Assembly (NCBI GenBank): GCA_018819925.1 | Contig: JAHJPG010000110.1 | Span: 1 to 64,000, forward strand | Direction: 5' to 3' | DNA from: Pseudomonadota bacterium | GTDB lineage: Bacteria > Desulfobacterota > Desulfarculia > Desulfarculales > Desulfarculaceae | Length of the DNA: 64,000 nt | Part shown: positions 6,216 to 63,060 of the stretch, in pieces | How the letters are laid out: each line of letters begins with the position of its first letter | Position numbering within the stretch: the first letter of the stretch is position 1 | Position numbers and translations under genes: made by a program | The notes under the pieces: model-generated | Database searches by the model: none | What the model was told of the DNA's origin: nothing | The model's input: the letters and a program-made list of their open reading frames with translations, nothing else

Positions 6216-6303
6216 GTAGCCCTTCTGTTTCCGGCACAAACCATTCCAGAACATCAGACACGATTAACTTTGCGTCCGTAGGCCGTGTCTTGTTCAGCCA
6301 CCA

Positions 6304-6425
6304 GCGGCACAGCCAGGCGACGGCAGACAAGGCGTCCGGCGAGTGAAGGCCGCAGGCGTAGTGCTAACTACGTCGAGGCTTGAGCGATGCCGGCAACGCA
6401 GGATTCCGTTGCCTGGCGAAGCCGC
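6304..6425. repeat. Short-form dispersed palindromic element, copy A1
   Basis: Imperfect inverted repeat over ~120 bp with central hairpin CGTAGT-GCTA-ACTACG (6357-6372); homologous to copies at 6430, 13292, 38446, 50969 and 62802. Confidence 0.8.
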
Positions 6426-6429
6426 TTTA

Positions 6430-6547
6430 GGCACAGCCAGGCGGCGGCAGACAAGGCATTCGGCGAGCGAAAGCCGCAGGCGTAGTGCTAACTACGTCGA
6501 GGCTTGAGCGCAGCCGATAACGCCGTATGCCGCCGTCTGGCTGCGCC
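6430..6547. repeat. Short-form dispersed palindromic element, copy A2 (tandem to A1)
   Basis: GGCACAGCCAGGCGGCGGCAGAC...GTATGCCGCCGTCTGGCTGCGCC arms; central hairpin CGTAGT-GCTA-ACTACG at 6481-6496. Confidence 0.8.
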
Positions 6548-6551
6548 GAGC

Positions 6552-13291: not shown

Positions 13292-13550
13292 AGCCCGAAT
13301 ATCCCATGGAGGCCGCGCGTCCTGCTGCGCCAGCCGCCGGCATACCGCGTTGCCAGCTGCGCTCGGTCCTTGACGTAGCCCTGGCTACGCCAGCGGACCT
13401 CGCTTGCCGGACGCCTTGTCTGCCGGTGCCTGGCTGTGCAGGGCCCGAATGCAAACCGCACCCCGCTATAGCTAACTGTTTTTTCATGAGGACCGCTTCA
13501 ATTTAAGTTCGTTGCTCACTGCCGCCCAACCCCCATGAAATATCCGGGCT
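13292..13550 (-). repeat. Full-length MITE-like intergenic element, copy B (259 bp, inverted relative to copies C and D)
   Basis: Ends AGCCCGAATATcCCATGGAGG / ...CATGAAATATCCGGGCT; reverse complement aligns over its length with copies at 50969-51226 and 62802-63060; central hairpin CGTAGCC-CT-GGCTACG at 13374-13389. Confidence 0.85.
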
Positions 13551-38425: not shown

Positions 38426-38445
38426 ACGACTCGGCAAGGCCCTGG

Positions 38446-38564
38446 GGCTGGCTGGGCGCGGCTGACTAGGCGTCCGGCGAGCGCGTTCCGGAGGCGTAGG
38501 TAATCCTACGTGGAGGAACAAGCGATGCCGGCAACAACGTCAGGCGCGTCCAGACGGACCTAGC
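38446..38564. repeat. Short-form dispersed palindromic element, copy E (divergent)
   Basis: GGCGTCCGGCGAGCG...CGTAGG-TAAT-CCTACG (38495-38510)...AGCGATGCCGGCAAC...; outer arms imperfectly complementary; sits between converging genes. Confidence 0.65.
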
Positions 38565-50968: not shown

Positions 50969-51226
50969 AGCCCGGATATTTCATGAAGGTTGAGCGGTAA
51001 CTAACAATAAATCAGTTTTTATGCTGTCTTTATGAAAAAAGCGCCCGCCCTATCAAGATGCAGTTTTACCCGAACCCGGCACAGCCAGGCAGCGGCAGAC
51101 AAGGCGACCGGCAAGCGAGGGCCGCAGGCGTAGCCTATGCTACGTCGAGGCCCGAGCACAGCCGGCAACGCGGTATGCCGGTGACTGGCGCAGCCGGACG
51201 CACTGCCTTCATGTAATATCCGGGCT
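50969..51226 (+). repeat. Full-length MITE-like intergenic element, copy C (258 bp)
   Basis: TIRs AGCCCGGATATTTCATGAAGG (50969) / CCTTCATGTAATATCCGGGCT (ends 51226); internal 'TTATGAAAAAAGCG' and central hairpin CGTAGC-CTAT-GCTACG at 51129-51144. Confidence 0.87.
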
Positions 51227-62801: not shown

Positions 62802-63060
62802 AGCCCGCATATTTCATGAAGGTTGGTCGGCATCGAACAGCGATTTAATATTGATGCGATCCTTATGAAAAAAGCGTTGGCTTTATCGGGGTGCGGTTTG
62901 TAATCGGACCCGGCACAGCCAGCCGCCGCCAGACAAGGCGTCTGGCAAGCGAGGGCTGCTGGCGTAGCCAGGGCTACGTCGAGGCCCGAGCGCAGCCAGC
63001 AACACGGTATGCCGGCGGCTGGCGCAGCCGGACCCACGGCCTTCATGGAATATGCGGGCT
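62802..63060 (+). repeat. Full-length MITE-like intergenic element, copy D (259 bp)
   Basis: TIRs AGCCCGCATATTTCATGAAGG (62802) / CCTTCATGGAATATGCGGGCT (ends 63060); central hairpin CGTAGCC-AG-GGCTACG at 62963-62978. Confidence 0.87.

Follow-up and report, generated by a model that had tools for sequence, protein, structure and literature searches.

The window analysed here, a stretch of 64,000 nt from a genome of the Desulfarculaceae that falls in one genus-level group with Desulfarculus sp. SURF_10, holds six copies of one palindromic element. The first two are stand-alone copies on the plus strand, arranged in tandem with a period of 124 nt (positions 6303–6426 and 6427–6550; apices at 6357–6372 and 6481–6496); they score 129.2 and 128.7 bits, respectively, with R1, a covariance model that we built from 40 copies, and the first also scores 94.3 bits with R2, a cross-phylum covariance model. 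The third copy is on the minus strand within a 259-bp MITE-like element (13292–13550; core 13320–13443, apex 13374–13389) bounded by the inverted ends AGCCCG..CGGGCT. The fourth, again stand-alone and on the plus strand, is the most diverged in the window (38441–38564, apex 38495–38510; 103.7 bits with R1, 72.5 bits with R2). The fifth and sixth are carried, both on the plus strand, by MITE-like elements of 258 bp (50969–51226; core 51075–51198, apex 51129–51144) and 259 bp (62802–63060; core 62909–63032). The apical hairpin of copy 6, CGTAGCCAGGGCTACG (62963–62978, plus strand), is flanked by GCTGG and TCGAGG, and the predicted RNA fold of its core (62910–63031) has an energy of −79.1 kcal/mol (z = −6.4). 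The element bearing copy 5 lies in a divergent gap, a rare class for this family, between genes with Pfam matches to asparagine synthase and lysylphosphatidylglycerol synthase TM.

A scan of the window for CGTAG-N6-CTACG returns exactly six sites (6357, 6481, 13374, 38495, 51129 and 62963), with the positions and sequences given in the original prediction and with 13374 as the reverse-complement copy; dinucleotide shuffles of the window give a chance expectation of 0.01, and none of 100 reaches six. The sixth stem pair reads, in the same order, T-A, T-A, C-G, G-C, C-G and C-G, as had been described, although 6357 and 6481 form a tandem pair with an identical 16-mer, which makes the window a small sample; the loop varies freely, as was also noted. 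That pair had been cited as an argument for selection on a fold. Genome-wide it is paired in only 50 of 84 copies and is not significant (E = 0.10), and we have dropped the argument, whilst selection on a folded strand is supported by other pairs, as described below.

The 16-mer lies at the tip of an imperfect palindrome of 122 nt, which extends 53 nt to either side of it. The CGTAG-N6-CTACG pattern has 43 matches in the whole genome and none in a reversed control; 42 of them are copies of one element, and the match at C25:70664 was set aside as an apparent chance occurrence in coding sequence. Searching with R1 (150 candidates scored) brings the number to at least 97 copies in the 4.03-Mb genome. 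The consensus fold is a single rod, in which an outer stem is followed by further stems with small internal loops between them, then by a GNA/GA loop and, at the tip, the apical hairpin. The outer stems are variable, the internal loops CAAGGC/AACGC and GNA/GA are conserved, and the apical CGTAG/CTACG is near-invariant, flanked in the family consensus by the GNA/GA internal loop and a G.U pair.

Since the first 42 copies had been found by their apical pattern, and were thus biased for the counting of pairs, covariation was assessed on 94 copies of this genome that had not been selected in that way. We used an R-scape-like test of our own (G-test with APC), in which Fitch-mapped substitutions are re-placed on a FastTree tree; the tree was itself derived from this short alignment. 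In the two-set comparison, covariation exceeds this phylogeny-aware null, with E<0.05 for seven of 44 pairs. In the one-set comparison, which considers all column pairs, the only two significant pairs both lie in the structure. Pairing is present in 89.4% of structure cells, against a null mean of 67% and a null maximum of 73.5%. Apical pairs 1 (C-G to T-A) and 5 (G-C to T-A), which seem invariant in the window, are among the seven. Taken alone, the stand-alone copies yield eight significant pairs of 44, and a cross-phylum set of 53 non-redundant copies yields four outside the apex, with 78% of cells paired (null maximum 64%). Selection on the folded strand is supported by these data, and we regard the covariation, the strand asymmetry and the distribution of the element as solid within the tools used. 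On the technical side, the chief weaknesses are the in-house covariation test, a tree built from the alignment under test, the MAG origin of most labels from other phyla and a replication-strand bias that did not replicate.

The two strands do not fold equally well. The plus strand is the lower in energy in 85 of the 94 copies from this genome (mean difference 8 kcal/mol) and in 51 of the 53 cross-phylum copies (mean difference 12 kcal/mol), a set in which the T of the apical G.T apposition was fixed by the search pattern, whereas the folding of the arms was not. A G.T apposition is common in the apical stem of the former copies, and at pairs elsewhere G.U outnumbers A.C by 200 to 116 (26 vs 12 pairs; sign test, p = 0.03). 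Selection acting on a duplex or a cruciform would give equal folding of both strands; the better folding of one strand than of its complement argues that the fold of a single strand is selected. The modelled energies point to RNA or single-stranded DNA as the form concerned and disfavour a symmetric cruciform. Of the 'folded RNA or a DNA cruciform' originally put forward, the RNA is retained, with single-stranded DNA likewise remaining, and the cruciform is disfavoured, because the strands fold unequally.

About a third of the copies lie within the 259-bp MITE-like element. Both ends of this larger element, AGCCCG[CG]ATATTTCATGAAGG, accompany 25 copies, and 24 of the 25 measure 256–261 bp, giving the class the terminal inverted repeats and fixed length of an IS630-type MITE; TA is present at about 15 of the 25 left ends and at most right ends, and element-free sites are compatible with a TA target duplication without being decisive. 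At 13292–13550 the element is absent from all eight congeners. The stand-alone site at 6303–6550 is empty in two congeners and holds different copies in others, and in two it is occupied by copies apparently orthologous to copy 2, 85% identical, beside a neighbouring gene that is 87% and 79% identical. In comparisons between these apparently orthologous copies, paired columns are less variable than unpaired ones (p = 0.047 and 0.011), and both-sided changes that preserve pairing are seen. Insertion polymorphism, together with the constraint on paired columns, indicates that the element has been gained or lost over time and that, to judge from sequence comparison at this one site, its stems appear to have been kept after insertion.

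The family extends well beyond the genus. In GTDB genomes the apical pattern (17 fixed bases) is present in at least 116 DNA stretches, as against some tens of matches estimated to arise by chance, and CAAGGC, the AGG before the apex and AACGC, all outside the search pattern, recur in distant groups. Of 298 genomes drawn evenly from the phylum, R2 matches 122, representing 86 of 202 genera. Among 22 genomes reached through the pattern, R2 finds 145 matches in Geothermobacter hydrogeniphilus, 50 in Desulfocarbo indianensis and 50 in Geobacter sp. (H2geo), as well as 96, 33 and 29 in MAGs labelled Fermentibacteria, Acidobacteria and Lachnospiraceae, respectively. Several of these 22 genomes supplied one copy each to R2, and it is therefore the further copies that count. 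Genomes labelled Geothermobacter, Geobacter, Fermentibacteria, Acidobacteria, Planctomycetes and Clostridia have multiple copies each; the cross-phylum labels belong mostly to MAGs, some of which may be binning errors, and named strains among the carriers are D. indianensis, G. hydrogeniphilus and Pseudothauera lacus. R2 has no matches in Nocardia and Rhizomicrobium, where the pattern itself appeared to have matched by chance. The statement that the repeats are 'not just recent duplication' is borne out, the family being common to several phyla.

A mobiliser was sought among known types. No Y1/RAYT (Y1_Tnp) gene is present in five element-rich genomes (G000, G001, G005, which is a single contig, G007 and G011), and an origin of the RAYT/REP kind was rejected on this ground. 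IS630 and IS1380 were likewise set aside: an IS630 transposase is lacking in eight of the nine genomes of the genus (DDE_3 occurs only in G003), and the genus has no intact IS1380 but two fragments in G000, which lack the inverted ends. These IS1380-type (PF13701) fragments are at loci L044 and L045, one of them with an internal stop. No parent IS with ends matching the 259-bp class was found among the IS1380 fragments of G000, for which the ends were compared. The copy in the window has no blastn match in plasmid or phage collections, which speaks against carriage by either; one stretch in viral contigs has the exact apical motif. Rfam 15 gives no family at gathering score, and only tRNAs in other loci, and no GC hairpin with a T-run is found at the element in the two window regions scanned for intrinsic terminators; both assignments were discarded. 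No recurring partner gene was found beside the cross-phylum copies, the clusters being housekeeping-like or without identity (a weak test).

The only prior description that we found is in the genome paper of Geobacter metallireducens (PMC2700814), which, in the part devoted to these repeats, reports 24 'predicted short RNA elements' around GRCGTAGCGCTGCTACGCC and places one Geobacter copy between dapAB and dapL in two species. Like the present element, this Gmet_R1005 family is multi-copy and intergenic, and its central palindrome, GRCGTAGCGCTGCTACGCC, corresponds to the CGTAGC-N4-GCTACG apex found in many of our copies, some of which read CTACGCC. The Geobacter palindrome ends in CTACGCC, whereas CTACGTCGAGG was used in the present scan, and the likeness rests on the central palindrome. 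In that part of the paper the family is given without a structure, a covariation test or a cross-phylum distribution (PMC2700814).

Resemblances to better-characterised repeats are of a more general kind. ERIC, RUP and Correia/NEMIS are also short non-autonomous repeats with stable RNA folds, and the 259-bp class resembles them in its terminal inverted repeats and in ends that often read TA; they are, however, listed for one or a few genera, whereas the present core occurs in many phyla (PMC2229807). They differ further in that here eight of nine genus genomes lack an IS630-type transposase and stand-alone copies lack separate inverted ends. The REP/GTAG sequences associated with RAYT are, like the present element, palindromic, of high copy number, mostly downstream of genes and found in several phyla, although their unit is 20–40 bp as compared to 122 nt (PMC3733652, PMC2817692). 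Many copies, mainly downstream of genes, as for GTAG REPs, are what we observe; but GTAG is an unpaired end tag in REPs and is paired inside the apical stem here, and REP/GTAG sequences rely on RAYT, whereas several element-rich genomes lack a detectable Y1 transposase. The CIR of Caulobacter and Brucella are likewise long intergenic repeats with a conserved fold and an exposed conserved motif, but have a two-armed structure with GANTC and are confined to few lineages (PMC2229807).

We consider it reasonably probable that the element is an old, non-autonomous mobile repeat of the REP/ERIC kind, selected for its single-strand fold. It would be a dispersed palindromic repeat of the general REP, ERIC or MITE type, common to many bacterial lineages, whose fold may be recognised, as RNA or single-stranded DNA, by a putative trans-acting machinery. 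Only copies able to fold would then spread, and those at gene 3′ ends would persist, either because they do little harm or because they act as 3′ hairpins of mRNAs. In Desulfarculaceae, a 259-bp element with terminal inverted repeats has probably captured the hairpin. A more speculative form of this proposal, which we think unlikely, is that of an ancient, small, cross-phylum element whose spread passes through a folded single strand, RNA or ssDNA, on which an unrecognised chromosomal enzyme acts; if true, this would be a bacterial counterpart of SINE-like parasitism. In either form, a structured repeat in about 40% of the sampled genomes of the phylum has neither an Rfam model nor a known mobiliser, and the only named family found is one Geobacter alignment. 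The element offers a test case for the origin and persistence of dispersed palindromes, and the covariance model, the element-free sites and the strand asymmetry make RNA, single-stranded DNA and repair readings separable by experiment.

The strongest alternative, itself only a tentative one, is an RNA element with a host function, conserved for the host and not for its own spread, in which the rod at the mRNA 3′ end blocks exonucleases or read-through from a facing gene. The genomic context is in keeping with such a role, as it is with the mobile-repeat reading. With genes placed by a simple codon-model caller, which left two of 97 copies unplaced, one copy of 97 is inside a called gene, and the 94 intergenic copies occupy 44 convergent, 46 co-directional and four divergent gaps, the background of gaps ≥100 bp at the same loci being 49, 83 and 42, respectively; the copies are thus at gene 3′ ends (90 of 94) and rare in divergent gaps. 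The complete congener G005 gives a like picture in a sample of 60 windows. Strand-specific folding, the retention in two congeners of an apparently orthologous copy with compensatory changes, and the annotation of Geobacter copies as predicted short RNA elements in the relevant part of PMC2700814 are also consistent with a host RNA. On the other hand, sense and antisense copies relative to co-directional genes number 27:19, without clear bias, sites differ among congeners and some are empty, and the two scans show no terminator T-tract.

Alternatively, a putative ssDNA recombinase, of the HUH or another type, could mobilise the element as single-stranded DNA at the replication fork and recombine it by way of its fold. 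This would also explain the strand-specific fold and is in accord with the lack of an obvious target duplication; we judge it rather unlikely. In G005, 24 of 31 copies have their sense strand opposite the leading strand (p = 0.003; L351–L410), compared with 611:505 for genes. This bias may, however, arise because hairpins on the lagging template are lost, and the five genomes named above have no Y1 transposase. A hand count in G327, a distant complete genome with a less certain origin, gives a split of about 8:5, and a replication-strand bias, clear in G005 (24:7) but not in G327, was not adopted as a general rule.

Palindrome-templated repair, in which the template switches between arms, is a known mutational process for quasi-palindromes. 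It could produce matched changes without selection, and both-sided changes are indeed seen at the apparently orthologous site 6303–6550, but we hold this account to be improbable: the arms are not homogenised, mismatches persisting in the conserved internal loops and at the sixth pair, which closes the loop, and repair acting on duplex DNA would not be expected to leave an excess of G.U over A.C on one strand. A protein site in double-stranded DNA, or a symmetric cruciform, would be compatible with a palindromic, chromosomal sequence whose window copy is without a blastn match in the plasmid and phage collections, and with the one stretch of viral contigs that has the apical motif. We hold it to be very improbable, as the G.T apposition common in the apical stem becomes A.C on the complementary strand, and the minus strand folds less well.

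Several copies have unusual surroundings or composition. Seven, in L268, L272, L274, L280, L292 and L301, have a REP-like sequence, TTTCGCTTCGCTCTACCCAACCTACG, 30–108 nt to the left of the core, the reverse complement of which begins CGTAGGTTGGGTAGAG. In chimeric copies (L103, L177, L300 and L313; L299 and L306) other repeats, with the units ..TTCGACGC.CTCTGCC.CCAGCGG.. and CCAAGGAGCTTCAACGGGAGCAGT, interrupt the left arm or stand in its place. Locus L150 holds a near-perfect palindrome of >130 nt bearing the same apical motif. Tandem arrays of three copies, with a period of about 136–142 as against the 108-nt model core, are found at L169, G360:C2:80028-80406 and G354:C10:6795-7185.
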